Notes: generated by a model not told the origin, from the sequence alone. A stretch of DNA of 64,000 bases from Planctomycetota bacterium (GCA_014584395.1 JACTMY010000004.1:124001-188000); one strand, 5' to 3'; counted from the stretch's first letter, positions 26,262-59,254 are shown. Program-made: numbers and translations.

Positions 26262-26960
26262 ATGCCGTTGGCTTTCATAGGTTCGCTTGCCGCCGATCAG
26301 TCGGCGGCGTTGATCTTCTTGTGCGTGGTGCTGATCATCGAGGCGTGGATTGATCTCACGCAATTGCGCGTGCCCAACCGGATCACCTATCCCATGATCC
26401 TTGCGGGGTGGGCGTATGCGTTTGGCCGGGCCTTCGTGGTGGCGCCGAGCGATGGACCGCCGATAGAAATGTACCTTTGGCCGTTCGGTCCGGAATTCAC
26501 GCTGAGCCAAACTCCATTGGCCGAGGGATTGCTTGGCTTGTGGTATTCCTTCAAGCTCACGGTGCTGGGCTTCCTACTGCTGATCTTCATGTACGCCATC
26601 GGCGGCATGGGGGCAGGGGACGTGAAGATGCAGATGGGATTCGGCGCTTGGGTGGCGCCGATCTTCGGCTATAGCCATGGCCTCATGATCGTGTTCTGGG
26701 GATGGATTTTTGCCGTGCTCATTGGCGGCGTGATCTCCGCCATCATGATCTGGTGGCGGGGCGACTTCCGACAAAATCGCCAAAATGTCAAGGACATCGT
26801 CGGCGATCTCGTGTCGGGCAAGTCCGTCGGGCAGATCGCGGACCGCGCCGCGGAGCGCAAGCCCAGAATGCACTTGCTGCCCTATGGCGTGCCGCTGTGC
26901 CTGGGCTTTATCGGTTACATTGTGCTCGATCATTTGCAGATGTGGCCCAAGCTATGGTAA
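26262..26960 (+). CDS. A24-family prepilin peptidase (CpaA/TadV-like)
   Basis: 'EAWIDLTQLRVPNRITYPMILAGW', 'AIGGMGAGDVKMQMGFGAWVAP' (GxGDxK), multiple TM helices. Confidence 0.9.
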   Translation: MPLAFIGSLAADQSAALIFLCVVLIIEAWIDLTQLRVPNRITYPMILAGWAYAFGRAFVVAPSDGPPIEMYLWPFGPEFTLSQTPLAEGLLGLWYSFKLTVLGFLLLIFMYAIGGMGAGDVKMQMGFGAWVAPIFGYSHGLMIVFWGWIFAVLIGGVISAIMIWWRGDFRQNRQNVKDIVGDLVSGKSVGQIADRAAERKPRMHLLPYGVPLCLGFIGYIVLDHLQMWPKLW

Positions 26961-27293: not shown

Positions 27294-28292
27294 ATGCAAT
27301 CGCGGACGTTAACGTTAATGGTCATCGCTCTTGCCTGCGGGTTGGGGGCGGCTTATCTCGCATGGAAATACGCGGGCGGCGGTGCGGATAAAAACGTCGT
27401 CATGAAGAAGGTCCTGGTGCCCAAGGAAGACATCAAGGGTCTAACTCGGCTGAACATCCAGGAATTGTTCCACGAAAAGGAAGTCAAGGAATCGAGTCTG
27501 CGCGATGTTAACGACGTCGTCACCACCTTTGACGAAGTCAAGGACATGCGCAACAAGGATTTCACCTTGTCCAAGGAAATGCCCATCTACAAGAGCGATC
27601 TGGTGAAGTACAGGGAATCGAGCATCATTTCGCGATTGAAGGAAGGGGAACGGGCCGTGACCGTGCCCGTTGACGCGGCCATGGCGGGCAGCGGCCACAT
27701 CGAGATCGGCTCGCGCGTGGATATCATCACGCAAATTCCCACCACCGGGGCGGATCAAAAAGTGCGCTTCAAGGTCGTGTTCCAAAACATTGAAGTCCTG
27801 GGCGTCAACACGGATTCAGCTCCTTCACCGGATGGACAACCCAAGCCAGCCAATACGCTGACGCTGCGCATGAAGAACGAAGATGCCCCGGCCATGACCG
27901 CTTATCGGACGCGCGGTCAGATCTTCCACGTGGTTCTGCGGAATCCCGGCGATGACAAAATCTACGACTATAAGGAATTCGTGCTGGGCGATGAAAAGAC
28001 GGGCGCGGGCGAAAGCGATCAACCCAAGGAAGTCGCCATCACCGACCCTCCGGTACAAGCACCGCCTCCGGCTCCGGTGGTTCAACCATCGGTTCCCACG
28101 CCCGTGGAAACCAAGCCGGAAGTGACACCGGTGGAAACGAAGCCCGCCGTCGTGGAAATCGACAATGAACCGAAGTGGATCACGACGCGCATCGTTGGCG
28201 ACGGCCCCACGGTGAAGACGATCAAGACTGAGATCAAGAAGGAAGAAAAGAAGCCAGAAAAGAGCGAGGAACCCGCGGGTTCATCGCACTAA
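27294..28292 (+). CDS. cpaB: Flp pilus assembly protein CpaB/RcpC-like
   Basis: N-terminal TM 'MQSRTLTLMVIALACGLGAAYLAWKY'; SAF-like 'VLVPKEDIKGLTRLNIQELF', 'RAVTVPVDAAMAGSGHIEIGSRVDIITQIP'. Confidence 0.88.
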   Translation: MQSRTLTLMVIALACGLGAAYLAWKYAGGGADKNVVMKKVLVPKEDIKGLTRLNIQELFHEKEVKESSLRDVNDVVTTFDEVKDMRNKDFTLSKEMPIYKSDLVKYRESSIISRLKEGERAVTVPVDAAMAGSGHIEIGSRVDIITQIPTTGADQKVRFKVVFQNIEVLGVNTDSAPSPDGQPKPANTLTLRMKNEDAPAMTAYRTRGQIFHVVLRNPGDDKIYDYKEFVLGDEKTGAGESDQPKEVAITDPPVQAPPPAPVVQPSVPTPVETKPEVTPVETKPAVVEIDNEPKWITTRIVGDGPTVKTIKTEIKKEEKKPEKSEEPAGSSH

Positions 28293-28560: not shown

Positions 28561-30525
28561 ATGCACGCTCTCAGGACATGGATGAAAGGCAAGCACCGGC
28601 TGATGGGCGCCGGTCTCGTGACCGCGCTTTTGTCTTGCCCTGTCGCCTGGACGCAGCCGCCGGACATGGCGGGGGGGCCGCCGCAAGCCACCGATACGGG
28701 CGGCGCCACGGGACAGGCCTTGCGGGCTGATATCTCGTGCCAAATCAACGAAACGATCACCCTGCGCCACAGCACGGGATTGCCTCTTAAGGAAATCCTC
28801 GTCTCGCGCGAGGGCGTCATCGGGGACATCGTCAAAGTCCAACCGGACGATGCCAGCCTGTGGAAAGCCACGGGCAAGACCGTCGGCGTGACCCAGGTCA
28901 CCCTGGTCACCACGGATGGGCAAAGCGAAATCAAGCTCATCCGCGTCGACCCCGACTTGAACTATATCCGCTCCTTGCTGGCCAAGAACTTCCCCACCGC
29001 CAATTTAACGTTGATTCCAGGCGGCCAACAAGGCTCCCTGATCGTCGGCGGCTGGTTGGAATCTCCCGAAGACGTTCAGCCCATCCTGACCTATCTTCGC
29101 GGCTTCGTGCCCGGCAATAACCCAAATCTGATCACCAATGCTATGCGGGTTTCGGGCGTGCAGCAAGTGAAGCTGGAAGTCTGCGTGGCTCGCGTGCAAC
29201 GCACTGATTTCCGCAACATGGGCTTCAGCTTCTTCCGCCTTGATCAAGAAAAAGCGTTGCTTAGCTCCATTGGTGGAACGCCGCTCTCGCTGCAAGAAGG
29301 CATCCTGCGTCCGCCTGGCGTTCTGGCCACCAATCCGAGCAGCGTGATTCAATTCGTGCTGACGGAACCGAATTCCGCGTTTGTCGGCTTCCTGCAAGCC
29401 TTGAAGCAAGAAGGCGTGGGCAAAATCTTGGCCCAGCCCTCGATCACGACCATGTCCGGCCGCGAAGCGGCCTTCCTGGTCGGTGGTGAAGTGCCTGCCG
29501 TGGTCGCTGGCGGCGGCGCTCAGGGCGGTCAAGGCGGCGTGGGCGGCGGCGGCGGCGCGATTCAATTCCGCCCCTTCGGCACCCGCGTCAGCTTCCTGCC
29601 CGTCGTGCTGGGCGATGGCCGCATCCGCTTGCAAGTGCAGGCCGAAGTGAGCCAGGTTGCGGGCACCGTGACGCAAGCCTTCTTCACGGCCCCCTCCTTC
29701 GTCATCAGCCAGGTGCAGAGCACCATCGAGATGGAAAACAAGCAGAGCTTCATCCTCGGCGGCTTGCTGCAGACGGAACTCAACGGCACGACCAGCAAAT
29801 TGCCAGTCCTTGGCGAATTGCCCTTCGTCGGCGCTGCATTCCGATCCGTGGAACTGCGCGAGATCGAAACCGAGCTCGTCGTGATGGTCACGGTGTCTTT
29901 GGTGGATGCCTTGGATAGCCATCAGAAGCCATGCATGTTGCCCGGCCAGGAAACCCGCAAGGCCACGGACTTTGAACTGTTCCTCGAAGGCATCATGGAA
30001 GCACCGCGCGGGCCTCGTGAACTGTTCCCGAATAACAAGTACGTGCCTGCTCATAAGTTGGCTCCTCCTTACGGCGTGCCGATGGGGGATGGCTGCAACG
30101 GCAATGGTTGGGGTTCGAGTTGCGGCAAAGTCGGCTGCACGACGGGCTGCACCAGTTGCACACCGTGCGGCAGCGCTCCTGTGCAAACGGCTCCCGCGCC
30201 GATGCCCGCTCCGCAGCAAAGCGTGAGCCGAGCCGCGGCCAAGGATGACCCCATGATGACGCCCATAGTCAAGGATGTGAAGCCGATGCCGATGAACCGG
30301 GCGGAAACAAAACCCATGCCGGTGCGGCAGCCGGAAGTCAAGCCGCCGGTCATGCCGGCCAGCAGCGAGGCCATGGTGATCGTTGAAGCGCCCAAGGCTC
30401 CCGTGGTGCCTGCCGCGGCGCCGCCGGCCCCAACGGCTCCGAGTTTGCCGCCGCTCCCGGCCGACGCGAAACGCGAAGGTTCCAGCACCAGCGAGGTGCC
30501 GCCTTTGCCGGAAATTCCGAAGTAA
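28561..30525 (+). CDS. Type II/III-family secretin (CpaC/RcpA-like) with a Cys-rich, Pro-rich C-terminal extension
   Basis: 'GQSEIKLIRVDPDLNYIRSLLAKNFPTANLTLIPGGQQGSLIVGGWLES', 'VQQVKLEVCVARVQRTDFRNMGFSF', 'FILGGLLQTELNGTTSKLPVLGELPFVGAAFRSVELREIETELVVMVTVSLV'. Confidence 0.93.
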   Translation: MHALRTWMKGKHRLMGAGLVTALLSCPVAWTQPPDMAGGPPQATDTGGATGQALRADISCQINETITLRHSTGLPLKEILVSREGVIGDIVKVQPDDASLWKATGKTVGVTQVTLVTTDGQSEIKLIRVDPDLNYIRSLLAKNFPTANLTLIPGGQQGSLIVGGWLESPEDVQPILTYLRGFVPGNNPNLITNAMRVSGVQQVKLEVCVARVQRTDFRNMGFSFFRLDQEKALLSSIGGTPLSLQEGILRPPGVLATNPSSVIQFVLTEPNSAFVGFLQALKQEGVGKILAQPSITTMSGREAAFLVGGEVPAVVAGGGAQGGQGGVGGGGGAIQFRPFGTRVSFLPVVLGDGRIRLQVQAEVSQVAGTVTQAFFTAPSFVISQVQSTIEMENKQSFILGGLLQTELNGTTSKLPVLGELPFVGAAFRSVELREIETELVVMVTVSLVDALDSHQKPCMLPGQETRKATDFELFLEGIMEAPRGPRELFPNNKYVPAHKLAPPYGVPMGDGCNGNGWGSSCGKVGCTTGCTSCTPCGSAPVQTAPAPMPAPQQSVSRAAAKDDPMMTPIVKDVKPMPMNRAETKPMPVRQPEVKPPVMPASSEAMVIVEAPKAPVVPAAAPPAPTAPSLPPLPADAKREGSSTSEVPPLPEIPK

Positions 30526-30834: not shown

Positions 30835-32064
30835 ATGATAGAAGCGCGACGATTAGCCATCTGTGATCCGTCCAATGCGACGCGCGAGCCGCTGCGCAAC
30901 TTGCTCCTGGGCATGGACGGCGTATCCCTGGAAGCGGAATCCAATCGCTACGAATATTTCAGCGACGTGGTGGAACAATATCAGCCTGACACCGCGATTA
31001 TCTGCCTGGATACTGATCCGACGCGCGGCTTGCAACTGATCGCTCAATTGGCGCGCAGCGCCCCGCACATGGCGATTCTGGCCGTGAGTTCGCGCTCCGA
31101 TGGTCCGTTCATCTTGCAGACCCTGCGCACGGGAGCGCGCGAGTTTTTGCCCCAGCCGATCCAATTCGAAGAATTGCAAGCCGCCATCGACCGGGTGCGG
31201 ACGATGGTTCCCTCGCCGCCCGGCACGGAAATCAACGCCGCGGCGCCCGTGATGCCGCGGGTCTCCAGCCTGGCAACCTCGAAGATCATCGCCATCGCCG
31301 GATCGCGGGGCGGCATTGGCTGCACCAGCATCGGCGTGAACCTGGCCTGCTGCTTGGCCCAGGACAAGGAAAACCGGGTGGTCTATGTCGACCTCGATCT
31401 GGCCCTCGGCGATTCCGACGTTACGCTCGACATCATTCCCAGCTACACGCTGGCCGACATCGCCATGAACATTCAGGAGATCGACCCCAAATTCCTGAAG
31501 GGAGCGCTCAGCCGGCATGAATCGGGGCTGTATCTGCTGCCCCATCCCATGCAACTCGACGACGTCGGCCTGATCCATGAAGAACATTTGCAGCGGTTGC
31601 TGGCCTTGCTGCGCACCGGGCATACGCACATTATCGTAGATTTGAGCAAGAGTTTCCGGCCGACGGATTTCACGGCCCTGCAAATGGCCGACATCATTCT
31701 CTTGGTCGCCCAACTGGAACTCACCAGCATCCGCAACTGCGTGCGGCTGCTTCAATCCATGGGCAACGTCGAGGGGCTCTCAGAGAAAATTTATCTGCTC
31801 ATGAACCGCGTCGGCGCGGACGACCAGGACATCAGCATCCAACGCGCCGAGGAAACAATTAGCCGCAGGGTCTTTTTCGTGATTCCCAACGACAGCAAGG
31901 CGATGCTCAGTTCCCGCAACGTCGGAAAACCATTGATTCAATTTGCCCCGAAGTCGAAAGCATGCCAAGCTTTCATACAACTGGCGAACGTGTTGTCCGG
32001 GAAGGAAGAGATGCCTTCCAACGTCTATGTGAAGACCAAGAAGAAATCCGGTTGGTTTAGCTAA
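30835..32064 (+). CDS. CpaE/TadZ-like protein (receiver-like domain + MinD/ParA-type ATPase)
   Basis: 'IIAIAGSRGGIGCTSIGVNLACCLAQDKENRVVYVDLDLALGDSDVTLDI' deviant Walker A; N-terminal 'DTAIICLDTDPTRGLQLIAQLARSAPHMAILAVSS' receiver-like. Confidence 0.9.
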   Translation: MIEARRLAICDPSNATREPLRNLLLGMDGVSLEAESNRYEYFSDVVEQYQPDTAIICLDTDPTRGLQLIAQLARSAPHMAILAVSSRSDGPFILQTLRTGAREFLPQPIQFEELQAAIDRVRTMVPSPPGTEINAAAPVMPRVSSLATSKIIAIAGSRGGIGCTSIGVNLACCLAQDKENRVVYVDLDLALGDSDVTLDIIPSYTLADIAMNIQEIDPKFLKGALSRHESGLYLLPHPMQLDDVGLIHEEHLQRLLALLRTGHTHIIVDLSKSFRPTDFTALQMADIILLVAQLELTSIRNCVRLLQSMGNVEGLSEKIYLLMNRVGADDQDISIQRAEETISRRVFFVIPNDSKAMLSSRNVGKPLIQFAPKSKACQAFIQLANVLSGKEEMPSNVYVKTKKKSGWFS

Positions 32065-32146: not shown

Positions 32147-33589
32147 ATGTCCAAGTTTCCATCGCGTGGAGGCATGCCTCCCAGTCATTTGCCGGGTCTG
32201 ACGTCGACCTCCTCCCCCTCCCTGCCCCCCGGGCGGACTTCGGGAGGCCTTCCCAACTTGCCCTCCCGCAGCATCAACACCAGCGGCACCTCCTTGGCCG
32301 CCGGCACCGCGAATAAAAGTTTTGACGACCTCAAACGCATCATTCACGGCAAGCTGGTCGAGAAACTCGATCTGTCCAAAGTCAGCGATTTGCAAGGCGA
32401 TGTGCTGCGCCGCGAAATCCGCCTGGTCGTTGAACGCTTGTGCGACACGGAAAATCCCTTACTTAACCGCATGGAGCGCGAGCGCCTCATCGACGAAGTG
32501 CTCGATGAAACCTTCGGCTTCGGGCCGCTCGAAATTCTGCTCAAGGACCCGACCATCAGCGATATCATGATCAACGGCCCGCATCGCATCTACGTTGAGC
32601 GCCGCGGCAAGACCGAGAAGACCGACGTCAAGTTCCGCGACAATCAACACCTGTTGCAAATCATCGACCGCATCGTCTCGAAGGTGGGCCGGCGCGTCGA
32701 CGAAACCACGCCCATGGCCGACGCCCGTTTGCCCGACGGCTCGCGCGTGAACGTCATCATTCCCCCCTTGGCCCTGGACGGCCCAGCGATGTCCATTCGC
32801 CGCTTTGGCTCGGTCCCCCTTAAACTCGAGGATTTGCTCAACTTCAACGCCTTCACCAAGGAAATGGCAATCCTCATGGAAGCCGCCATCAAGGCTCGGC
32901 TCAACATCATCATCAGCGGCGGCACCGGCAGCGGTAAGACGACTCTGCTCAACACCCTCTCCAGCTTCATCCCCGGCCACGAGCGCATCATCACCATCGA
33001 GGACGCCGCGGAACTGCAGCTACAGCAGGAGCACGTGGTCCGGCTCGAAACGCGGCCGCCCAACATCGAGGGCAAAGGGCAAATCACCTGCCGCGACCTG
33101 GTGCGCAACGCCTTGCGCATGCGGCCCGAACGCATCATCATCGGCGAATGCCGCGGCGGCGAAGCGCTCGACATGCTCCAGGCCATGAACACCGGCCACG
33201 AAGGCTCGATGACCACGCTGCACGCCAATAGCCCCCGCGACGCCTTGGCCCGCTTGGAAACCATGGTCATGATGGCGGGGTTCGAAATGCCGGTGAAAGC
33301 CATGCGGCAGCAAATCTCCTCGGCGGTGGACTTGATCATTCAAACCAATCGCCTCCAGGGAGGGCCGCGCAAAATCACCAGTGTGTCGGAAATCGTTGGC
33401 ATGGAACAGGAAATCATCGTCATGCAGGAAGTCTTCCGCTTCAAGCAAATGGGCATTGATCAAAACGGCCGCGCCTTCGGCCAGTTCGAATGCAGCGGCG
33501 TTCGACCCACGTTCTTGCCCAAGCTGGAAGCTGCGGGAATTAAGTTGCCATCGAATTTGTTCCAGGAGCGCATTCTACTTCGCGATTAA
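32147..33589 (+). CDS. cpaF: CpaF/TadA-type secretion ATPase
   Basis: '[33 protein letters not shown]', '[53 protein letters not shown]', '[43 protein letters not shown]'. Confidence 0.97.
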
Positions 33590-33681: not shown

Positions 33682-34668
33682 ATGCTCAATCTCCAAACAT
33701 TGACCGACCCGTTGATTTTGATTCCCTTCCTTGCCTTTGCCTCGGCCGTGGCGTTGGTCTTGGCCGTGGGCTTCATCGCCAAGGGCAGGGTAAGCAGCGC
33801 CGAGAGCCGGCTCGAGATCTTCGCGCGCAAAAGCAGCAAGAATACCTCCTCCAGCCAATCCATCGAAATCTGGAAAGATGCGATGGAGCTCAACAAGAAG
33901 TCGCTGGTGGAGCAGATCGCCCCGAACATTCCCTCGCTGGACCGCATCTTCGAGCAAGCGGAGGTGAACATCCGGCCGAGCGCCGTGATGGGCTTGTCCG
34001 CCTTGCTGTTCCTCGTGGCTTCTATCGCCAGCTACGCCGTGGGCGCGCCCGTGGCCGTGGCCTTGATCCCGGGCTTGATCTTCGGCATCGCTCCCTGGTG
34101 GTGGGTGTTTTACATGCGCAAGAAGCGGCTGGATAAATTCCAGGCGCAAATGCCCGACGCGATGGAATTGCTGGCCCGCGCCTTGCGCGCCGGTCAAAGC
34201 TTCCAGGCAGGCTTGCACATCATTGCCGAGGAAATGCCGCCGCCCATCGCCACGGAATTTGGCCGCGCTTATGAAGAGCAAAACTTGGGCGTTACCGTTG
34301 AAGACGCCCTTAAGGCCATGTGCGAACGCGTGCCCAACCTCGATCTGAAATTCTTCGTCACCAGCGTGCTCATTCAGCGTCAAACCGGCGGCGACTTGTC
34401 GGAAATTCTCGACAAGATCGGCTACGTCATCCGCGAACGGTTCAAGATTCTCGGCATGGTCCAAGCCCTTACCGGCGAAGGTCGTTTGAGCGGCAACGTT
34501 TTGATCGCATTGCCCTTCGTGATGTTGCTCGCGGTCATGCACATCAATTACGACTACGTCAAGGTGCTCTGGACCACGGAAACGGGCCAGCGGTGGTGCG
34601 TGTACGGTCTCATCATGCAGCTCATGGGAGCCTACGTCATTCGCCGTATCGTGAACATCAAGGTGTAA
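33682..34668 (+). CDS. tadB: Type II secretion F-family protein TadB
   Basis: 'MPDAMELLARALRAGQSFQAGLHIIAEEMPPPIATEFGRAYEEQNLGVTVEDALKAMCERVPNLDLKFFVTSVLIQRQTGGDLSEILDKI'. Confidence 0.94.
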   Translation: MLNLQTLTDPLILIPFLAFASAVALVLAVGFIAKGRVSSAESRLEIFARKSSKNTSSSQSIEIWKDAMELNKKSLVEQIAPNIPSLDRIFEQAEVNIRPSAVMGLSALLFLVASIASYAVGAPVAVALIPGLIFGIAPWWWVFYMRKKRLDKFQAQMPDAMELLARALRAGQSFQAGLHIIAEEMPPPIATEFGRAYEEQNLGVTVEDALKAMCERVPNLDLKFFVTSVLIQRQTGGDLSEILDKIGYVIRERFKILGMVQALTGEGRLSGNVLIALPFVMLLAVMHINYDYVKVLWTTETGQRWCVYGLIMQLMGAYVIRRIVNIKV

Positions 34669-34775: not shown

Positions 34776-35759
34776 TTGCTCATGGATACATCGCTATTTA
34801 GTGACCTGTTACCCGTGGTGGTGGCCTTTGTCTTGCCCCTCGGGCTGCTCTTTTTGGTCCTGACCCTCTTCTCGAAGCGGAATACTCAGGCGGAAGAACG
34901 GTTGGCCCGCTTGAATCGGCCCGTTTCAATGATGGATATCGAACCGCCTTCGTCTGGTGGATTGGACCACAAGATGAAGGACATCATCGACCGCTTTTCA
35001 GGTCTGGCCAAACCTCTGCAACCAAAATCGGAATTTGAAGTTTCCCAGCTTCGCCAAAGACTCGCCAATGGAGGGTTCCGCTCGGAAAAGGCTGTCCAGG
35101 TCTATTTGGGCATTCGTTTTGCCTCGATGTTGCTGGGCTTTGCCGTGCTGGCCTCCCTGATCCCGGTCTATTGGACGGGGAACGTCATGGACCTTTTCCA
35201 AGGGGGAGCTGGAATCATCCTGTCCGTAACCCTGGCTTTGGGGTTGTTCGCCCCGGAATGGATTCTCAGTTACATCATCTCCAAGCGAAAAGAAGCGATT
35301 TTTTTGGCTTTGCCCGATGTTCTTGATCTGATGGTGGTTTGCGTCGAATCTGGGCTAGGTTTGGACGCCGCCATGCGGAAAGTTTGCGAAGAAATGAAGG
35401 ACCATCACCCCGTAATTACCGAAGAAATAAATATAGCGAACTTCCAGCTTCAGATGGGGCGTCCCAAACGGGATGTATTGCATGACTTGGGGGTTCGCAC
35501 CGGCGTGGATGACATGAGAAGCTTGGCAGCCGTGTTAATTCAGGCCGACCGTTTTGGGTCAAGCGTGGCTCAGGCGTTGCGCGTGCAATCCGATTCTTTG
35601 CGAACTCGGCGCCGCCAAATTGCCGAAGAAAAAGCAGCCAAGACGGCGGTCAAACTGATTTTCCCGCTCGTGTTGTTCATCTTCCCGGGTATTTTCATCG
35701 TGTTAGCGGGACCCGCGGCGATCCAAATCCAGGAACAGCTCCTGGGGACGCCCATGTAA
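34776..35759 (+). CDS. tadC: Type II secretion F-family protein TadC
   Basis: 'LPDVLDLMVVCVESGLGLDAAMRKVCEEMKDHHPVITEEINIANFQLQMGRPKRDVLHDLGVRTGVDDMRSLAAVLIQADRFGSSVAQALRVQSDSLRTRRRQIAEEKAAK'. Confidence 0.94.
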   Translation: MLMDTSLFSDLLPVVVAFVLPLGLLFLVLTLFSKRNTQAEERLARLNRPVSMMDIEPPSSGGLDHKMKDIIDRFSGLAKPLQPKSEFEVSQLRQRLANGGFRSEKAVQVYLGIRFASMLLGFAVLASLIPVYWTGNVMDLFQGGAGIILSVTLALGLFAPEWILSYIISKRKEAIFLALPDVLDLMVVCVESGLGLDAAMRKVCEEMKDHHPVITEEINIANFQLQMGRPKRDVLHDLGVRTGVDDMRSLAAVLIQADRFGSSVAQALRVQSDSLRTRRRQIAEEKAAKTAVKLIFPLVLFIFPGIFIVLAGPAAIQIQEQLLGTPM

Positions 35760-35905: not shown

Positions 35906-36541
35906 ATGACCCTCAAGTCCAAGAATGCCATCCTGGCGGGCGTGTTGGCGACCGGGATGGTCTCCTTAACCGGTTGCGTGGGAACCTACAGCGACATCGT
36001 CGATCCCTGCTATCCGGATCGATACAACTGCATGGCCCGGGAAACGGTCATTGTGCCGCAAACCACCATGGCCGAGAATGGCACGGCCTTGGAACAAACC
36101 GTTTACAATTACCACTTCCGTGAAGGCAGCGATGAATTGCTGCCTGGCGGGAAATCGCTGCTGATTCGCCTGGCGCGCCGCCGTCCCCAACCGGACACGC
36201 GCATCTATGTGCAAGCGACCAATGATGAATCTGTGCTGGGGAATCGCAATCTAGAAGAAATCGGCGCTAAGCGAAAGGAACTCAACGAAAAGCGGGTTGC
36301 CGCAGTGGCCGAGTTCCTCAAGGCCATTCGTCCCGACGTGGGCTTCACGATCGCCGTGCATGACCCGAGCAAGATCGGCATCTTCTCTGAAGAAGCTCGC
36401 TCCGCCATTAGCGACATGCACAGTTCCGCGACCGGCAACATGCAGCTTCAAGGGCCTGGAGGTGTTGCCGCGGGCGGCGGTGGCGGCGGCGAACAGGGCG
36501 GTGGCGGACAAGGCGGCGGTGGTGGTGGAGCGCCTCGCTAA
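35906..36541 (+). CDS. Lipoprotein with Gly-rich C-terminal tail (Tad-locus associated)
   Basis: Lipobox 'GMVSLTGC'; tail '[27 protein letters not shown]'. Confidence 0.75.
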   Translation: MTLKSKNAILAGVLATGMVSLTGCVGTYSDIVDPCYPDRYNCMARETVIVPQTTMAENGTALEQTVYNYHFREGSDELLPGGKSLLIRLARRRPQPDTRIYVQATNDESVLGNRNLEEIGAKRKELNEKRVAAVAEFLKAIRPDVGFTIAVHDPSKIGIFSEEARSAISDMHSSATGNMQLQGPGGVAAGGGGGGEQGGGGQGGGGGGAPR

Positions 36542-37058: not shown

Positions 37059-38447
37059 ATGTCACAATTCAATTCCCGCAACGCCGTTTCCCTGGCCGCA
37101 CTCGCTAACAAAAACGCCATGATGGATTGGGATACCTCCGACATGCCGGAGGCGCCATCCACGCCGGAAACCCTGAAAGAGGCGGGCCTCACTCTCAGCT
37201 TTCTCAATGACATGTTGTTGCGGTCGCTGCTTATTCGCGGCACCATGCTGGGAATCGACCTGTGCAAACTGTTGTGCTTACCCTTCCGCGTTCTGCAAGA
37301 TTCGCTTGAATTTCTGAAGGCCGAAAAGTGCATCGAAGTGACGGGCGGCGACTTGATCGGCCAGGTCTCCTATCGGTTCACGCTCACAGATTTGGGCCGC
37401 ACGCGCGCCCAGGCAGCGTTCAAAATGTGCAGTTACATCGGCCCCGCGCCGGTGCCGCTCGAAGATTACGTCGAGCAGGCCTACCGCCAGGCGGTCACGG
37501 GCATCCATTGCACCCCGGAAACTCTGCGCATCAGTTTCACTCACTTGGTTGTGCCCGACGACCTGTTCATGGCCATTGGTCCCGCCGTCGTCAGCGGCAA
37601 GTCCATCTTCATCTATGGCCCGCCCGGCAACGGCAAAACGGCCATGGCCACGGCCATCGGCGACTTCATGAACCGCAGCGGCGGGTCGATCTACGTCCCC
37701 TATTCCTTCCATGCCGACGGCGGCATCGTCACCGTCTACGATCCCACCATTCACCAACTCGCCGATGACCCGGCCAATGAGCGAATCGACGACAACGAAG
37801 CCACGATTCGCCGCCTGCTCAACACCAACACGGTTGATGCGCGCTGGGTCCGCATTCGCCGGCCGGTCGTGATCACGGGTGGTGAATTGAACCTGGACAT
37901 GCTCGACTTGCGCTACAATACCGACGCCAACTTCTACCAGGCGCCGCTGCACGTCAAAGCCAATGGCGGCGTCTTCCTCATCGACGATTTCGGCCGGCAA
38001 TTGGTCAGCCCCAAGGAGTTGCTCAATCGTTGGATTCTGCCCCTGGAAAACCGCCACGATTACCTGACCCTGGCCACAGGCAAGAAGATCGAAGTCCCCT
38101 TTGAACAGCTCATCATCTTCTCCACGAATTTGGATCCCAAGGACCTGGTCGATGACGCCTTCTTGCGGCGTATTCGCCACAAAGTGGCCATCAACGCTCC
38201 CGCCCGGGAAGTCTATACCAAAATCTTTGAGATGAACTGCAAGCGGCTGGGCATGAACTCCAGTCCCGAGGCCATCGATTACCTCTATGACCGGTATTAC
38301 GACCGGGGTCGGTCGCCGCGTGCCAGCGATTGTCGAGATTTATTGGAGATTGTGCAGGCGATTTGCCGATATAGAAAACAGCCTGTGCGCCTGACGCCGC
38401 AACTCGTTGCGGAAGCCGCTGGACAGTTCATCGCCGAATTTCAATAA
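37059..38447 (+). CDS. AAA+ ATPase with winged-helix-like N-terminus
   Basis: Walker A 'SIFIYGPPGNGKTAMATAIGDFM', Walker B 'NGGVFLIDDFGRQ', 'LIIFSTNLDPKDLVDDAFLRRIRHKV'. Confidence 0.88.
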   Translation: MSQFNSRNAVSLAALANKNAMMDWDTSDMPEAPSTPETLKEAGLTLSFLNDMLLRSLLIRGTMLGIDLCKLLCLPFRVLQDSLEFLKAEKCIEVTGGDLIGQVSYRFTLTDLGRTRAQAAFKMCSYIGPAPVPLEDYVEQAYRQAVTGIHCTPETLRISFTHLVVPDDLFMAIGPAVVSGKSIFIYGPPGNGKTAMATAIGDFMNRSGGSIYVPYSFHADGGIVTVYDPTIHQLADDPANERIDDNEATIRRLLNTNTVDARWVRIRRPVVITGGELNLDMLDLRYNTDANFYQAPLHVKANGGVFLIDDFGRQLVSPKELLNRWILPLENRHDYLTLATGKKIEVPFEQLIIFSTNLDPKDLVDDAFLRRIRHKVAINAPAREVYTKIFEMNCKRLGMNSSPEAIDYLYDRYYDRGRSPRASDCRDLLEIVQAICRYRKQPVRLTPQLVAEAAGQFIAEFQ

Positions 38448-38669: not shown

Positions 38670-39536
38670 ATGGGGGCAAGGATGCGCCGGCAATGGGTGG
38701 GAATGGTGTTATTGAGCGGCTTGGCCTTCTCCCTGGGGTGCACCCGGCATCAAACGCTCGTGCCCCCGAATATGAATCTCGGGCCGGAGTATCAGTCCAG
38801 CACAACTAACACGGCCACCTCCGTCATTCCCGATCTGCCCGGCAAGCCCAAGACGCCCCAGGCCAGCACTTGCATCGCGTTCGGCGACTGGATGATCACC
38901 GCTGGCGACAACGCCCGCAATCACGCCCACAAGGCGGCCTCCGACGAACAACGGCAGCAATTCCTCGATCAGTCCAGCCGCTGTTACGAAAACGCCAAGC
39001 AGCTATATCATCAGGCCCTCAAGCTCGACGCCAAGGATATGCGCGCTTATCTTGGATTGGCCAAGCTAGCCCAGTATGAAAAGCGTTTTGACCAGGCCAA
39101 TGAGCACTATCAACGCGTGCTCAAGGAATACCCCAAGGACGCTTCTATTTGGTTCGAATACGGGCTGTGTCTGGCCAAGCAGAAACAGTGGAATGAGTCT
39201 TTGGAATGCATGCAAAAGGCGTGTCAACTGGACGGCAAGAACACGAATTATACCTCGCAATATGCTTGGGCCTTGGCTCGCGTCGGACGCTTCGAGGAAA
39301 GTTGGAACCTATTCCGCGGCCTCTACGGCGATGGCCCGGCTTACCTCCGAGTCGCCCAGATGGCCATGCACCTCGGTCAATGGGATAAGAGCAAACACTT
39401 TGCTCAATTAGCGCTTCAAATCGATCCTGAATTGGCGCAGGCTCGCGAATTGCTCATTCATTTGAACAATCCGGCCGCGCAAGCCGAAGCGCAGTCCGCC
39501 ATTCAGCAGATTCAATACGTTCCACCACCCCATTAA
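38670..39536 (+). CDS. TPR-repeat lipoprotein (TadD-like)
   Basis: Lipobox 'GLAFSLGC'; TPR-like 'YLGLAKLAQYEKRFDQANEHYQRVLKEYPKDASIWFEYGLCLAKQKQWNESLECMQKACQLD'. Confidence 0.8.
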   Translation: MGARMRRQWVGMVLLSGLAFSLGCTRHQTLVPPNMNLGPEYQSSTTNTATSVIPDLPGKPKTPQASTCIAFGDWMITAGDNARNHAHKAASDEQRQQFLDQSSRCYENAKQLYHQALKLDAKDMRAYLGLAKLAQYEKRFDQANEHYQRVLKEYPKDASIWFEYGLCLAKQKQWNESLECMQKACQLDGKNTNYTSQYAWALARVGRFEESWNLFRGLYGDGPAYLRVAQMAMHLGQWDKSKHFAQLALQIDPELAQARELLIHLNNPAAQAEAQSAIQQIQYVPPPH

Positions 39537-40702: not shown

Positions 40703-41749
40703 TCAACCCAAGGCGGGTTGCTGCATCGTCATGCAATGGAGCGTGCCCAAGCCCCAGACTAAATCCAGGGCGTGAATGCCCACGATGCGCCGCTCCGGAA
40801 ACGCTTCGGCTAATAGGTTCAGCACGCGCCGATCGTTCGGGTCATTGAACGTGGGAACCAACACGAGGCCATTGGCGATATAAAAATTGGCATAGCTGGC
40901 TGGCAGCCGCTGCCCATCGAAATAGACTGGTTTGGGCATGGGCAGGGAAATGACGCGCAGCGGTTCGCCATCGGCATTGGTTTGTCCTTGCAAACGCTCC
41001 AAATTCTCGCGGAGGGGTTCATAATTTTCATCCGCGGGGTCATCTTCCACGGCCAGGAGAACGGTTTGCCGATCAACAAACCGGGCCAAGTCGTCCACGT
41101 GGCCGTGTGTGTCGTCGCCGACGATGCCGCGCTGGAGCCAGATCACCTTGCGAATGCCCATGGCCTGGGCCAGGACCGATTCGTAATCCTCGCGGGTCAT
41201 GCCCGGGTTGCGGCATTGGACGGAGCTAAGCAGGCACTCTTCCGAGGTCAGCACGGTGCCTGCGCCATTGCCGTCGATGCTGCCCCCTTCCAGAACGACG
41301 GGCTGTCCCTTGAACTGCGGCGACTCAACCCCCGCATCGGTCCAATCCGCCATGGCTCGTCCTGCTTCCTCGTCCTGCTCCCAGTTTTCATATTTGGCCC
41401 ATGCGTTGAACCGCCATTTGACGGCCAACGCTTGTCCGGCCTGGTCGATCCAAAGGGGACCGAAATCACGCGTCCACACCCGATCCGTGGGCAAGGGGAC
41501 GAACTCGATGCTAGCGCCATCGGCCTCCATCCCGCAGCGGCGCAGGGCGCTGACCGCCGCCAGATGGCTATGCTCGCTGACCAGCACTTTGACCTTTTCA
41601 TGCTGGCGAAGGTGCCCGATGATCGATGCGTAGACCCAAGGAATGGGTTCGAACTTATCGGGCCAATCCGCCTCATTGTGCGGCCAGGCGAGCCACGTGG
41701 CGGCATGAGGTTCCCATTCCGCAGGCCAGCGTCGCTTGTGGGTGGGCAT
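40703..41749 (-). CDS. aguA: Agmatine deiminase family protein
   Basis: 'PAEWEPHAATWLAWPHNEADWPDKFEPIPWVYASI', 'RVWTRDFGPLWI', 'VVLEGGSIDGNGAGTVLTSEECLLS', 'GDDTHGHVDDLARFVD'. Confidence 0.93.
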   Translation of the reverse strand: MPTHKRRWPAEWEPHAATWLAWPHNEADWPDKFEPIPWVYASIIGHLRQHEKVKVLVSEHSHLAAVSALRRCGMEADGASIEFVPLPTDRVWTRDFGPLWIDQAGQALAVKWRFNAWAKYENWEQDEEAGRAMADWTDAGVESPQFKGQPVVLEGGSIDGNGAGTVLTSEECLLSSVQCRNPGMTREDYESVLAQAMGIRKVIWLQRGIVGDDTHGHVDDLARFVDRQTVLLAVEDDPADENYEPLRENLERLQGQTNADGEPLRVISLPMPKPVYFDGQRLPASYANFYIANGLVLVPTFNDPNDRRVLNLLAEAFPERRIVGIHALDLVWGLGTLHCMTMQQPALG

Positions 41750-45856: not shown

Positions 45857-47195
45857 CCCGCGGTCCTCGCTGTTCCAGCCACGCTGAACCGGGTTGTCCA
45901 AAGCCGCTTTGCCGAATCCACGGCTCCAGCTCGGTCCCCTTATGCAGCCAAAGCAGGATTGGCGTGGTCATGATCGTGGTTATCAAGGCCATAAAAACCA
46001 ACATGGTGAAGACGGATTGTTCAATCACTCCCAAGTCAAAACCGACGTTGATGACGATCAATTCCATCAAGGCGCGGGTATTCATCAGGATACCAATGCA
46101 ACTCGCCTCGCGCCAGGAAAAACCGGCCCAGCGGGCGGCCAAGGCGCAGCCACCCCATTTCCCGCTGATGGCCATGAGCAAGACCATTCCTGCCATGAAC
46201 CAGGCCACCCCGCCATGAAGCGTGCCGACGTCGGTGCGCATTCCGGTGAAGGTGAAAAAGATTGGCAGGAAAAAGGCCCCCACGAAATAGTGGAACGGCC
46301 CCGACAGAGTCTCGCGCAGCCGGGTTTCATCCGACAGCAAGGCGCCGAGGAGAAAAGCCCCAAATATGGCGAAGATGCCGATCAGGTGCGTCGCCAAGGA
46401 TGCAAGGAACAGCAGGATCAAGAGCACGGCCATGCCGTTGATCTCCAGCCTGCCATCCGTCTTTTGCAAATACCAGGCGATCGACCGCTTTAGACCAGGC
46501 CGAATGATAAACCGCATGCCGATGAAAAACAGGATGGTCAGGAGCAGCATGCGCAGCGTAAGCCAGGGATCGAACCCGACCCGAACCGCTCCCGCTACCG
46601 TGGCCAGTATGATCCAGGCTGAAGCGTCGTCGATGGCCGCGGCGGTGATCGTCACCACGCCCAGATGGGTGCGGGTCACGTTCAGTTCGATCATCATGCG
46701 GCCCAGGATGGGCAAGGCTGTGATGGACATGGCCGTTCCTAGGAAGAGCCAAAAACCGGTGGGATCGACCTTCAACTCCAGCGCATGATGCATCCAGGGG
46801 GCGAGCAGGGCGCCCATGGAGAAGGGAAGCACAATGCCCGACAGGGAAATGGCCAGCGCCGCCTTGCCCATTTGCCGTAGATGTTGAAAATCAAATTCCA
46901 GCCCGACGATGAACAGCAACAGAATCAAGCCAATTTCCTTCATGACGCCGAAGATGGGGCTGGCGTCGTGGATGATCCCCTGCCAATCTTGCCACAGCCA
47001 GGTCAACCCTAGCCCAGCGGCCAGCGGTTGAAAGACAGAAGGACCAAGGACTAATCCGCCCGCGATTTCACCGACCACGGCCGGTTGCCGCAGCCGTCGA
47101 AAGAGCCAAGCGAACAAGCGGGCGATCGTGATGATGACGATGAGCTGAATGATGACACTCTTCAGGACGTGTTCCGTATCCATCCATTCTTCCAA
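45849..47195 (-). CDS. Cation:proton antiporter (CPA2/Kef-type)
   Basis: 'VVGEIAGGLVLGPSVFQPL', 'EIGLILLLFIVGLEFDFQHLRQMGKAALAIS', 'AIDDASAWIILATVAGAV', 'NTRALMELIVINVGFDLGVI'. Confidence 0.92.
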   Translation of the reverse strand: MEEWMDTEHVLKSVIIQLIVIITIARLFAWLFRRLRQPAVVGEIAGGLVLGPSVFQPLAAGLGLTWLWQDWQGIIHDASPIFGVMKEIGLILLLFIVGLEFDFQHLRQMGKAALAISLSGIVLPFSMGALLAPWMHHALELKVDPTGFWLFLGTAMSITALPILGRMMIELNVTRTHLGVVTITAAAIDDASAWIILATVAGAVRVGFDPWLTLRMLLLTILFFIGMRFIIRPGLKRSIAWYLQKTDGRLEINGMAVLLILLFLASLATHLIGIFAIFGAFLLGALLSDETRLRETLSGPFHYFVGAFFLPIFFTFTGMRTDVGTLHGGVAWFMAGMVLLMAISGKWGGCALAARWAGFSWREASCIGILMNTRALMELIVINVGFDLGVIEQSVFTMLVFMALITTIMTTPILLWLHKGTELEPWIRQSGFGQPGSAWLEQRGPRDD

Positions 47196-47485
47196 TGTGT
47201 CATGGTTCTGTGCAAGGCCATTCGCAGCGGGTGAAACAAACTGGCGAGCGGTTCTTTAATCAAATCTCTTATCTGTTTTAGCGATCTTGCCATACCCTGT
47301 CTGCTTAACGTCAACGGCTGTCTTTTCGCCATAAACCGCACAAGTTCCCGGCGCGGGATAACCGATACTAGCTGCAAGGATGACTGCGCGTCGGATTCGG
47401 TCTCGCATTGGAGACCAGGCAGCTTTCCCCCCGGGTGGCTGCGATCAGGGAAAACGAGGCGTCGAACTGTCAAGGGGCCAGCACG

Positions 47486-49408
47486 ATGCGATCAGCGACG
47501 TCGGTAAGGAACGCTAAGCCCATGTCGAGTCGGTCCAGTCGCTTACAGGCCTGGAAAGATCGATGGATGGGACTGTGCATGGCGGGTGTCATGGTCATTC
47601 AGCCATCCCCCAGCGAAGCGCAAACGCTCCCCAAGCTATCGGCGCCGATTCAGAAGAACAGCCAGGCCGAACCACCCCGCTTTCCCGAACGCGTGCCGCC
47701 GATTCCAAACCTGCCCAAGGACCCGGCTGACAAGCTGGGGGGAAGCAGCGAAGCGGCGCGAACGCCGCCCGCAGAGGTTCCTTTTCAAAATCAACGCCGC
47801 TTGCCGGAATTGGGCGTGCCCAAGCTCGGCACGCCGCCCAAGATGACCCCCGAGATCCTGCAAAAGTACAATCAGTTCGTCGGCTCCATCGTCGATCCCG
47901 ACAATACGTTGAACCTGGTCGTGGGCCGGCCGCGATTGCTGCAACTCAAGACGCAGCCTCGCCGCGTGCAGATCGCGGATGAAGCCGTGGCCGAATATGG
48001 CTTCATCACGGACAAACAGGTCTCCATTCAAGGCCGCCAGGTCGGCACGACCGTGCTCAATCTGTGGTTTGCCGATCCCGCGAATCCCAATGAGGAAGTG
48101 ATCCTCAGCTATTTGCTGCACATCCTGCCCGATACCCAGGCCAAGGAACGGCTTGAAAACGTTTACAAAGCGCTTGAGGAAGAGATCAATCGCGCCTTTC
48201 CGGACAGCAGCATCTGCTTGGGGCTGGTGGGTGATAAAATCGCCGTCTCCGGGCAAGCCAAGGACATCGCCGAGGCCACGGCCATACTCCGCATCGTTCG
48301 GGCCAACGCTCCTGGCGGCAATGACGGGCCCGACGCCGCCCAGATTCCGGTGCAAAATATCTCCCTCAACGTCAACGCGGACATGAACCCGCAAGACCCC
48401 GCCGCGCCGCCCGCCCTCAGGGATTTCCTGCTGGCAGGCGGCCCGAATGTCATCAATCTCATCCGCGTGCCCGGTGAACAGCAAGTGATGTTGAAGGTGA
48501 CCGTTGCGGAAGTGAACCGCGCCGCGGCGCGCAGCATTGGCCTGAATTTCACCCTGGTCAACAACAATGGCGTGCCCATCTTCAGCCAGCTCACGGGCGG
48601 CATCCTGGGCGCCGGTCCGCAAGTCAACAACATGCCCGTGTTCCTCGATTCCGGACAAGTCGCCTTGGCCATCAATGCCTTGCGAACCTTGCAGTTCGCT
48701 CGGACTTACGCCGAACCGATGCTGACGACCATGAACGGCCGACCCGCTTCCTTCCAGGCGGGGGGACAATTTCCCGTGCCCGTCGTCACCGGCTTCACCA
48801 ACGCCGGGCTGCAGGGCGTCCAGTTCGTGCCCTTCGGCGTGCAGCTTTCCTTCACGCCTTTTATCACGGACAAGGATCGCATTCGCCTGGTCATCAATGC
48901 CGAAGTCAGCGCCAGGGATTTGCAATCGGGACAAACCAACATCGGCGGCGCCCAAGTCCCCAGCCTGACGACGCGGAACTTCAGCACCACGGTCGAGCTG
49001 CGCGAAGGCCAGACCTTCGCCGTGGCAGGGTTGATCCAAACCAATTACGGCGCGAATGCCGACCGCGTCCCCTATTTTGGGGATCTGCCGTTTGTCGGCC
49101 GGGCGTTCGCCTTCGATCGCACGACGTCGGGCGAGCAGGAATTGGTCATCCTGATCACGCCGCAACTGGTGCATCCATTGGAATGCAAGGACGTGCCGCC
49201 GCTGCCCGGCTCCGACGTCTTTGAACCGGGCGACATCGAATTCTACCTCCGAGGCTTGCTCGAGAGCCGGCGGGCGACCGATTATCGAGCCTCGACCCGG
49301 ACCGACATCGAACGGATGCGCAGCTACCGCCGCTGCGAGAACATCTTCATCGTCGGACCGCATGGGTTCGTGGATCAGGCGCTGCCGCCGGCGACGGGGA
49401 ATCGATAA
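47486..49408 (+). CDS. Second type II/III-family secretin (CpaC/RcpA-like)
   Basis: 'NLVVGRPRLLQLKTQPRRVQIADEAVAEYGFITDKQVSIQGRQVGTTVLNLWFAD', 'VPGEQQVMLKVTVAEVNRAAARSIGLNFTLV', 'FAVAGLIQTNYGANADRVPYFGDLPFVGRAFAFDRTTSGEQELVILITPQLV'. Confidence 0.93.
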   Translation: MRSATSVRNAKPMSSRSSRLQAWKDRWMGLCMAGVMVIQPSPSEAQTLPKLSAPIQKNSQAEPPRFPERVPPIPNLPKDPADKLGGSSEAARTPPAEVPFQNQRRLPELGVPKLGTPPKMTPEILQKYNQFVGSIVDPDNTLNLVVGRPRLLQLKTQPRRVQIADEAVAEYGFITDKQVSIQGRQVGTTVLNLWFADPANPNEEVILSYLLHILPDTQAKERLENVYKALEEEINRAFPDSSICLGLVGDKIAVSGQAKDIAEATAILRIVRANAPGGNDGPDAAQIPVQNISLNVNADMNPQDPAAPPALRDFLLAGGPNVINLIRVPGEQQVMLKVTVAEVNRAAARSIGLNFTLVNNNGVPIFSQLTGGILGAGPQVNNMPVFLDSGQVALAINALRTLQFARTYAEPMLTTMNGRPASFQAGGQFPVPVVTGFTNAGLQGVQFVPFGVQLSFTPFITDKDRIRLVINAEVSARDLQSGQTNIGGAQVPSLTTRNFSTTVELREGQTFAVAGLIQTNYGANADRVPYFGDLPFVGRAFAFDRTTSGEQELVILITPQLVHPLECKDVPPLPGSDVFEPGDIEFYLRGLLESRRATDYRASTRTDIERMRSYRRCENIFIVGPHGFVDQALPPATGNR

Positions 49409-49519
49409 TTGGCCGCGATGGCTCGCGCCGCGGCTGCATGCACCGGCGGACCGTCGTGTGGAAGAAAACATGCACTCCGTTCACATGGACGGAACCTTGA
49501 GTCTCATAGGAACGGCCCC

Positions 49520-50137
49520 ATGAAACAAAAATCATCCGCGAACTCGTGGTGGTTAGCCTCCCTGGCGATTGCACTGCCCGGGCTGCTCAATGGATGCGCC
49601 ACGGAAGCCAACTGGGATCGTTGTGCCACCATTCCGCCCGGCGCCATGCCGGCTCCTGTGGGGACGAACGTCAATCGCATCGTCGATGCCCAGGCGGCGC
49701 GCGCCGAGGCCGATGATTTCGTCATCTACCACCATGAATGGTATCTGGGCGGCGTGACCCTCGGACCTTATGGACAGTATCACGTGCAGCAAATCGCCCA
49801 ACGTCTGCCCACCGTGCCGTTCAACGTCACCATCCAAGCCACGCCCGATCAGCAACTGAACGAAACCCGCCGAAAAGTTGTCGTCAGCGCCTTGACCGCC
49901 GCTGGCTTGACCGACGTGGACATCCGTGTGGCCGTGGGGTATCCCGAAGCCGAAGGCCTATACGGCGAAGAAGCGGAACGGGCTTACCAGTTCATGCAGC
50001 AAGGGGGGGGCAACAACTTTGGCGGCTTCGGCATGGGCGGCATGGGCGGCTTTGGCCGCGGCTTCGGCAACTTCTTTGGCGGCGGGCGCAACTTCTTCCG
50101 CGGCAACCTGGGGTTGGGCAGCGGTCCGTTCTTTTAA
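49520..50137 (+). CDS. Lipoprotein with Gly/Phe-rich C-terminal tail, paralog of the 35906-36541 product
   Basis: Lipobox 'ALPGLLNGC'; 'IQATPDQQLNETRRKVVVSALTAAGLTDVDIRVAVGYPEAEGLYGEEA'; tail 'GGGNNFGGFGMGGMGGFGRGFGNFFGGGRNFFRGN'. Confidence 0.78.
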   Translation: MKQKSSANSWWLASLAIALPGLLNGCATEANWDRCATIPPGAMPAPVGTNVNRIVDAQAARAEADDFVIYHHEWYLGGVTLGPYGQYHVQQIAQRLPTVPFNVTIQATPDQQLNETRRKVVVSALTAAGLTDVDIRVAVGYPEAEGLYGEEAERAYQFMQQGGGNNFGGFGMGGMGGFGRGFGNFFGGGRNFFRGNLGLGSGPFF

Positions 50138-50199
50138 TCGCATCGGCCATGTGGCGCAGGAAACGAGTGGTTCCCAAGGTAGCTGAGGAGTCTCACGCC

Positions 50200-51222
50200 A
50201 TGATCAAGCCCATCGATCGCTCATGGCGTGGCGGACTGAAGTTCCGGCTCTGGGTCAAGCCCCTCAGTTTGATCCTGCTTGGCGTCATGACCAGCGGCTG
50301 CCAATCGTTCGGTTCCGTCTCCATGCCATGGTCCTCGACTGACTCCGCCGCGACCACTCGCGCCGACGTGCCGCCATTGGGCATTCAGCCCGAAAGCAAA
50401 CCCGTTGCATTGCCCAAAGATAAGGCTGCCCAGGCTTGCTTGCTCGTGGCCGAGAGCCTGGAAGCCAACGAACATTTCCGAGAAGCCATTCTGCAGTACG
50501 AACTGGCTCGGCAATATCAACCTCAGTTGCCTGGACTGGACCGCAAGCTGGGCCGGCTCTATGAGCAGGCCGGCGACTACGACAAGGCCCTTGCGGAATA
50601 TGAAAAAGTCCTCAAGGCCAGCCCTCAGAACGCGGAATTGATGAACGACGTCGGCTACATCCATTGGCGGAAGGGCAACGGCGGCGAAGCGGAAAAGTGG
50701 TTTCGGCAAGCCTTGGCCTTGCAGCCCAGCCTGAAGCGGGCACAGATCAACTTGGGTCTGGCCTTGGGGCAGCAGGGGAAGTTCGATGAAAGCCTGGCGG
50801 CGTTTCGGGTGGTCTTGCCCGAAGCGGAGAGCCGCTGCAATTTGGCATTTATCCATCTGCAGCAAGGGCGGGTGGCCGAGGCTCGTCAGGAATACCGCAT
50901 GGCTCTAGCGCTCAACCCGCAACTGCAACTGGCCAAGGATCGCCTGGCAGACCTGGAGCGCGTGGAGATGAAGATCATGCAATCGTCGTTGGCCAAGAGT
51001 GAGCCGGCCCGGTTGCCTCAATCGCCAATGACCTCGACCTCTGCGCCCTCGCGCTTGAATGAAACCAAGCCCCCAGTCGCCGCGAACGTGGATTATCCTC
51101 CTGCGCCGATCATGCAAGTCGACTGGCGGCCGGCCGGTGCGCCTGTTCCTGCCCCTTCCGAATCAACCCTGCCAACAGCCTCTCCTCGCATCAGGCTCGG
51201 CCTGCCGCAACAGATGAAATGA
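50200..51222 (+). CDS. TPR-repeat lipoprotein (TadD-like)
   Basis: Lipobox 'LLGVMTSGC' in MIKPIDRSWRGGLKFRLWVKPLSLILLGVMTSGCQSF; TPR 'RLYEQAGDYDKALAEYEKVLKASPQNAELMNDVGYIHWRKGNGGEAEKWFRQALALQP'. Confidence 0.82.
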   Translation: MIKPIDRSWRGGLKFRLWVKPLSLILLGVMTSGCQSFGSVSMPWSSTDSAATTRADVPPLGIQPESKPVALPKDKAAQACLLVAESLEANEHFREAILQYELARQYQPQLPGLDRKLGRLYEQAGDYDKALAEYEKVLKASPQNAELMNDVGYIHWRKGNGGEAEKWFRQALALQPSLKRAQINLGLALGQQGKFDESLAAFRVVLPEAESRCNLAFIHLQQGRVAEARQEYRMALALNPQLQLAKDRLADLERVEMKIMQSSLAKSEPARLPQSPMTSTSAPSRLNETKPPVAANVDYPPAPIMQVDWRPAGAPVPAPSESTLPTASPRIRLGLPQQMK

Positions 51223-51238
51223 GACTAGGCCGCATGGC

Positions 51239-51982
51239 TCAGGGTTTGCGGAATTCCTTGTCATCAATCTTGTCGAGAAACTCCACATTCACGACCTGGC
51301 TGACCAGATAGCGATTGCCTTCGTGGTAGATCACCGTCTGATGGGGATAGGCCACGCCCTGGACTTCGCGATAATCCGATACGAATACTTCCTGTTGGAC
51401 CCATCGACCAAAATTGGCGTCCTTGATGCGATATTCGTACTTGACGGGCAAGAACGTGGCGGCGTCGCAATACAGGATGAAATCGGGCCGATCCTTGGCG
51501 GTGATTTTGACGCCAAGAGCCATCTGGCCATCGATCCGCCGCGGGGGAAGAGCATGAAGCTCGTGGCCCCCATCGCGAATCTCGAGCAGATGGATCAGCC
51601 GCGTGATGTACAAATCCTGCTTGCGCGCGGCCAATTCATCCGGCGACAAGTCCCGCGGCGGCTGGTCTTGATCCTGCTCCCAGCCCTGATCGCCATCGAT
51701 GACGCAGAGCGAACGGTCTTCGCCTCTTAGCGACGGTTGGAGATAGGTCATCTTCATGCGGTGGGGAAGATGAATGAGGGTTTCGATTTGAAACGTGGTC
51801 TCCTTCAATCCCAGACGCAGGGTGCCCTTTTGCGTTTCTCTCATGAGCATCAGTTTTTTGAGCACCGCGGCGCCGCCCCGCGCCTCGATCGCCCGGGCCA
51901 AAATCTCCTGGGGCGCGGGCGGTTCGAGCCGCATCGGATCAGGGCACCAGGGAATCAACAAGACCATCAAGAGCGTCGTCAT
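51239..51982 (-). CDS. LolA/outer-membrane lipoprotein-sorting-like hypothetical protein
   Basis: 'ILARAIEARGGAAVLKKLMLMRETQKGTLRLG', 'LYCDAATFLPVKYEYRIKDANFGRWVQQEVFVSDYREVQGVAYPHQTVIY'. Confidence 0.6.
   Translation of the reverse strand: MTTLLMVLLIPWCPDPMRLEPPAPQEILARAIEARGGAAVLKKLMLMRETQKGTLRLGLKETTFQIETLIHLPHRMKMTYLQPSLRGEDRSLCVIDGDQGWEQDQDQPPRDLSPDELAARKQDLYITRLIHLLEIRDGGHELHALPPRRIDGQMALGVKITAKDRPDFILYCDAATFLPVKYEYRIKDANFGRWVQQEVFVSDYREVQGVAYPHQTVIYHEGNRYLVSQVVNVEFLDKIDDKEFRKP

Positions 51983-59182: not shown

Positions 59183-59254
<72 letters not shown>

Follow-up and report, generated by a model that had tools for sequence, protein, structure and literature searches.

The window analyzed here, a stretch of 64,000 nucleotides from a Planctomycetota bacterium (GCA_014584395.1 JACTMY010000004.1:124001-188000), carries a Tad pilus locus, referred to here as Tad1, and three further genes in a row for a secretin (SEC2), a lipoprotein (LIP2), and a tetratricopeptide repeat (TPR) lipoprotein (TPR2). 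These three genes, together called the triad, are the subject of this report. The first-pass annotation had described them as paralogs of the outer-membrane parts of Tad1, and Pfam searches, BLASTP, and profile-profile comparison confirmed both the gene calls and the paralogy. The triad consists of the following genes.

SEC2, 47486..49408, plus strand: CpaC/RcpA-type secretin with a signal peptide, a PF13629 N-domain, a PF00263 secretin domain, and a conserved C-terminal region
LIP2, 49520..50137, plus strand: outer-membrane lipoprotein with lipobox LLNGC, a predicted OmpA-like core, and a Gly-rich tail
TPR2, 50200..51222, plus strand: TPR lipoprotein, predicted pilotin of the TadD/PilF type, with lipobox TSGC and several TPRs

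SEC2 matches the secretin domain PF00263 with an E value of 2.6e-40 and the pilus N-domain PF13629 with an E value of 1.5e-12. Its scores against the curated models for type II secretion system (T2SS) and type IVa pilus secretins were far under the cutoffs (110 of 351 bits for GspD and 97 of 284 bits for PilQ), which ruled out its assignment to either system. The best NCBIfam model for TPR2 was PilW (E value of 1.7e-20, under the model's cutoff). The neighbors of the triad in the window are genes for a Na/H exchanger and a NUDIX hydrolase and one gene without a Pfam match; as had been noted earlier, no ATPase, TadB/C, or CpaB gene adjoins it there. No promoter or terminator signal in 47100-51400 exceeded chance, and a tRNA at 59183 was the sole match in the Rfam search.

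The host genome (G000) is a draft assembly of 3.7 Mb in 20 contigs and is 87% complete. A second TadA gene plus a TadB/TadC pair were found on another contig, C16, where the genes listed below, all on one strand, form an inner-membrane engine.

TadE, C16 13194-13688
CpaB, C16 11906-13231
TadG, C16 10500-11864
TadA, C16 9044-10456
TadB, C16 8103-9047
TadC, C16 6987-8009
HEAT-repeat protein, C16 5334-6767

The C16 CpaB and TadA score slightly under the NCBIfam equivalog cutoffs. The stretch was read gene by gene, and no secretin, lipoprotein, or TPR gene was present at the locus. It is bounded by protein kinase, serpin, and carboxypeptidase genes, and since these non-Tad genes flank it on both sides, no contig edge conceals a secretin; the possibility of one hidden by a contig break was thus ruled out. 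The secretins of G000 number three, namely SEC2, the Tad1 secretin SEC1, and one at G000:C8:6188-6709 (L003) within a 1,670-amino-acid (aa) open frame. The triad in the window and the C16 locus complement each other as two halves, and the features of a Tad outer-membrane module (a secretin with a CpaC-type N-domain, a TPR lipoprotein, a Tad engine of its own, and Flp and prepilin peptidase genes) are all present in G000, though engine and portal do not lie in one locus, as they do in relatives G022, G024, and G073 and in several genomes of the class.

In G022, G024, and G073, the triad adjoins the second engine in opposite orientation, with the order Flp-TadV-TadE-CpaB2-TadG-CpaE-TadA2-TadB2-TadC2 (one or two small genes in the G022 and G024 loci are unlabeled). 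These single loci and the C16 engine speak against the earlier claim that the triad has no engine of its own. In three further genomes (G006, G045, and G075), the triad shares a contig with engine-2 genes and lies close to them. In the window's family and many other families, the triad and engine 2 are on different contigs. The order secretin-lipoprotein-TPR is kept in the wider class, and the triad is a paralogous unit conserved far beyond G000, as had been proposed. Class-wide linkage was judged from gene positions and 3.5-kb loci: a TadA gene lies no more than 6 kb from the triad in G306, G482, G440, G222, G428, G420, and G426 and at a single locus in each of G392, G295, and G416. In G420 and G426, which belong to the same phylum and lie outside the class, the single TadA gene is the one beside the triad, at 6 kb. 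Where relatives have an engine next to secretin 2, it is of the Tad type; an unrelated T2SS or type IV pilus engine at that position, which the first-pass annotation had named as fatal to its idea, was not encountered. Distant SEC2 relatives adjoin yet another Tad engine in G013 and G025 and lie near a TadA gene in G076.

In most f3-family members, among them the single-contig chromosomes of G170, G149, and G384, and also in G268, the distance from the triad to the nearest TadA gene ranges from 41 kb to megabases. Since triads lie far from TadA even in closed chromosomes, the split is not an assembly artifact, and the separation of triad and engine is real and widespread. The same solitary triads of Planctomycetia would be expected if the triad were a stand-alone pore, that is, an engineless outer-membrane channel with its own export or import function. 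However, no triad genome among the 30 sampled lacks a TadA gene, several distinct lineages show linkage of the triad to a Tad engine, and the triad is coupled to TadA2 as described below, so that such a pore is highly improbable.

Two other observations concern the surroundings of the triad in relatives. In G035 (L074:933-6899), a 1,988-aa secretin-like frame adjoins the triad, the only such case among the genomes looked at. At L037, L066, L067, L072, and L073, a gene pair encoding proteins of about 540 to 640 aa and about 1,350 aa (TPR-like) recurs beside it.

The first-pass annotation had suggested two portals sharing one engine. Such a reading, with SEC2-LIP2-TPR2 as a second exit for the Tad1 engine in other circumstances or for a different filament, draws on the closeness of the two loci in the window (about 8 kb) and on the paralogy of their parts. 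The Tad1 genes are as follows.

Prepilin peptidase of the TadV/CpaA type, 26262..26960, plus strand, PF01478
CpaB/RcpC, 27294..28292, plus strand, PF16976
Secretin SEC1, 28561..30525, plus strand, PF00263, of a clade separate from SEC2
CpaE/TadZ, 30835..32064, plus strand, with AAA_31 and response-regulator receiver domains
ATPase TadA1, 32147..33589, plus strand, PF00437
TadB, 33682..34668, plus strand, PF00482 at G000:C2:158162-158539
TadC, 34776..35759, plus strand, PF00482 at G000:C2:159322-159705
Lipoprotein LIP1, paralog of LIP2 by BLASTP and profile-profile comparison, 35906..36541, plus strand
AAA ATPase gene, 37059..38447, plus strand
TadD-like TPR lipoprotein TPR1, with TPRs, 24% identical to TPR2, 38670..39536, plus strand

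SEC1 and SEC2 are 32% identical over 310 aa (E value of 3e-37). LIP1 and LIP2 are 27% identical by BLASTP (E value of 3e-8), and the profile-profile comparison gave a probability of 98.8% and an E value of 7.6e-17, so the alignment of the two lipoproteins first made by eye reflects homology. The identity of TPR1 and TPR2 carries little weight because TPRs resemble one another. The claim of a common gene order stood for the sequence secretin-lipoprotein-TPR; it did not extend to contiguity, as the CpaE, TadA, TadB, and TadC genes intervene between secretin and lipoprotein in Tad1 and the AAA ATPase gene between lipoprotein and TPR gene. That ATPase resembles genes in Burkholderia and Pseudorhodobacter tad loci (sequences compared by reading, unaligned).

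Tad1 thus already owns a secretin, a lipoprotein, and a TPR gene, which argues against a second exit for its engine. The triad and Tad1 share a contig in few of the relatives fetched, one being G039 (about 33 kb apart), and in the closed or near-closed genomes G023, G052, G075, and G088 they are far apart on one chromosome. G056 to G058 have a triad, one TadA gene (type 2), no LIP1 match, and no detected Tad1; two of these three genomes are 81% complete.

The phylogenies separate the two systems in the same way. SEC2 forms one clade (support of 100) with 40 relatives, apart from Tad1 secretins, and TadA2 forms one clade (support of 98) apart from TadA1, with linked and unlinked copies intermixed. 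Because the trees were built quickly and include some long branches, the overall correlation is more secure than any individual placement. The partial Mantel correlation of SEC2 with TadA2, given TadA1, was 0.72 over 25 genomes, 0.68 over the 19 genomes with unlinked copies only, and 0.70 over the 14 genomes left when unlinked copies were limited to one per genus (P of 0.0005 in each case). In contrast, SEC2 did not track TadA1 once TadA2 was accounted for (0.08, 0.09, and -0.03 over the same three sets, not significant). The Mantel correlation of SEC1 with TadA1 was 0.82, and that of LIP2 with TadA2, given TadA1, was 0.89. These results indicate that the evolution of the triad follows engine 2 and not Tad1. 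A shared Tad1 engine was rejected as the principal explanation on the Mantel tests and the genomes without detected Tad1, and we consider it very unlikely.

Among 102 genomes of the order, 30 had both SEC2 and TadA2, 1 had only the engine, 6 had only SEC2, and 65 had neither. From gene content, homology, co-occurrence, co-evolution, and linkage in relatives, the triad very probably forms the outer-membrane part of a second Tad pilus machine (type IVc), whose inner-membrane engine lies at G000:C16:5334-13688.

Several observations weigh against this assignment. The Fisher test for co-occurrence (9e-19) ignores relatedness. G101 has engine 2 without a detected triad; in its sister G100, the triad is present, at a contig end. 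Two of the six genomes with SEC2 and no TadA2 have another Tad engine beside SEC2. Nested within the SEC2 clade are secretins of G042 (L070 and L250) and G066 (L068) whose immediate neighbor is a Tad engine with a TadA other than type 2, which indicates that portals changed engines during evolution. The 87% completeness of the G000 assembly also counts against the assignment, as does the fact that no CpaE, prepilin peptidase, or Flp gene was found beside the C16 engine, which is incomplete alone. Prepilin peptidase-type genes (PF01478) are present on C2, C6, and C14. Two Flp-type open reading frames (ORFs), one of which exceeds the Pfam cutoff, are on C1, apart from both Tad loci; they are short and in tandem between dapA and a phosphohistidine-phosphatase-like gene (G000:C1:533842-534250; L259:7843-8251). 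The Flp, prepilin peptidase, and CpaE for the C16 engine therefore probably come from elsewhere, perhaps from Tad1, with which they may be shared.

The missing parts of the C16 locus, the G042 and G066 portals beside an unrelated engine, and the G101 engine without a detected SEC2 led us to consider the secretin-lipoprotein-TPR portal as an exchangeable plug-in that serves more than one Tad engine per cell, with Tad1 and Tad2 parts shared in both directions, which we regard as unlikely. The lack of CpaE, TadV, and Flp beside the C16 engine, seen also in the parts fetched of G096 and G099, is what would be expected of a decaying second Tad system with the triad as a leftover. However, the ORFs of the triad and the C16 engine are all open with conserved residues present, and of the seven genomes sampled from the window's family, six retain both halves; decay is accordingly scarcely credible.

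All three parts of the triad find counterparts in CpaC/RcpA, CpaD, and TadD, which make up the outer-membrane module of published Tad systems (PMC13170226, PMC10499894), so the triad is not the undescribed system that had been suggested. In Caulobacter crescentus, the gene for the outer-membrane lipoprotein CpaD directly follows the secretin gene; the predictions for CpaD are an OmpA-like fold, a ring around the secretin, and binding to peptidoglycan, and deletion abolishes the machines (PMC13170226). The triad is similar in having a secretin with a short outer-membrane lipoprotein of tentatively predicted OmpA-like fold immediately downstream. In contrast to Caulobacter, its engine sits on another contig, LIP2 matches no Pfam family, so that the likeness to CpaD is by position and predicted fold only, and the TadD ortholog CpaO is dispensable in Caulobacter (PMC13170226). 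In Pseudomonas aeruginosa, TadD is the pilotin of RcpA (PMC10499894), a pair that resembles the CpaC/RcpA-type secretin and PilF-like TPR lipoprotein seen here; TPR2 differs in its length of 340 aa and long proline-rich tail. The C terminus of SEC2 has a GPxG motif in most members; in RcpA, the tail is what binds TadD. The plasmid tad locus of Pseudorhodobacter turbinis (L304) holds a full set of counterparts in a single locus, with Flp, CpaB, a PF13629 secretin, an OmpA-domain protein directly downstream, CpaE, TadA-C, a TPR protein, a prepilin peptidase, and an AAA ATPase. Its alphaproteobacterial CpaC carries PF00263 and PF13629, the same pair as SEC2, but its lipoprotein clearly belongs to the OmpA family PF00691, which LIP1 and LIP2 do not. 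The cited literature states no requirement for engine and portal to be in one locus in Tad systems.

The Pfam search with LIP2 gave no convincing family, no match even at an E value of 5, and no CpaD or OmpA match. In its AlphaFold (AF2) model, 80 core residues have a predicted local distance difference test score of >90 and the Gly-rich tail is disordered. The top solved neighbors of the model in Foldseek were OmpA C-terminal domains, Pal, and MotB (E values of 0.02 to 0.08 and probabilities of 0.84 to 0.99, mostly 0.95 to 0.99), and a LIP2 profile search lists OmpA domains weakly. The LIP1 model had no clear fold match. R117 is invariant in LIP2, R130 is invariant in LIP1, and D107 is present in 21 of 22 LIP1 members; these conserved Asp and Arg residues may be read as those of the OmpA peptidoglycan site. 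Alignment of the LIP1 and LIP2 profiles with the OmpA lipoprotein of L304 by hhalign was not significant (single-sequence query), and a search for true CpaD sequences on plasmids turned up an OmpA-type lipoprotein instead. LIP2 would thus be a counterpart of CpaD by position and predicted fold, not by demonstrated descent, and LIP1 and LIP2, planctomycete lipoprotein families without a Pfam match, are probable counterparts of CpaD. In a deep sublineage (L045-L052, from G054, G053, G089, G023, G052, G016, G006:C2, and G019), a LIP2 relative occurs in a trio with two unannotated genes, whose products are about 310 to 410 and 350 to 460 aa, and the trio lies separately from the secretin-TPR pair or in divergent orientation to it.

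Three neighbors of Tad1 in the window were also recorded. A serine/threonine kinase with a C-terminal PilZ domain (21319-24075) is encoded a few kilobases upstream and is possibly regulatory. A small Cys-rich ORF of 140 aa with a signal-like start and no Pfam match (25686-26108) directly precedes the prepilin peptidase gene. An agmatine/peptidyl-arginine deiminase family gene (PAD_porph, E value of 1.5e-117; 40703-41749), an ordinary neighbor, lies between Tad1 and the triad.

We infer that the triad physically pairs with the C16 engine, that TPR2 and LIP2 act as pilotin and anchor, and that a pilus is produced. TPR2 would aid the assembly of SEC2 in the outer membrane, by analogy with TadD for RcpA, and LIP2 would ring SEC2 and tie it to peptidoglycan, as proposed for CpaD. 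The N-domain of RcpA is bound by RcpC/CpaB, the conduit in the periplasm (PMC12307814), and the SEC2 N-domain may likewise dock on a conduit formed by the C16 CpaB, through which TadA with TadB/C would push Flp/TadE-type pilins. The arrangement is that of a Tad machine encoded at two loci, with a lipoprotein family that has no Pfam entry; it is neither an undescribed system nor an engineless pore.

The genes for the outer-membrane part of a Tad machine can thus form a stable unit apart from the motor genes and yet evolve in step with them, which cautions against labeling such secretins orphan pores. Many of the planctomycetes sampled have one to three triads alongside several TadA genes, and the problem of pairing portals with engines is therefore general there; co-evolution offers a way of pairing the dispersed halves.

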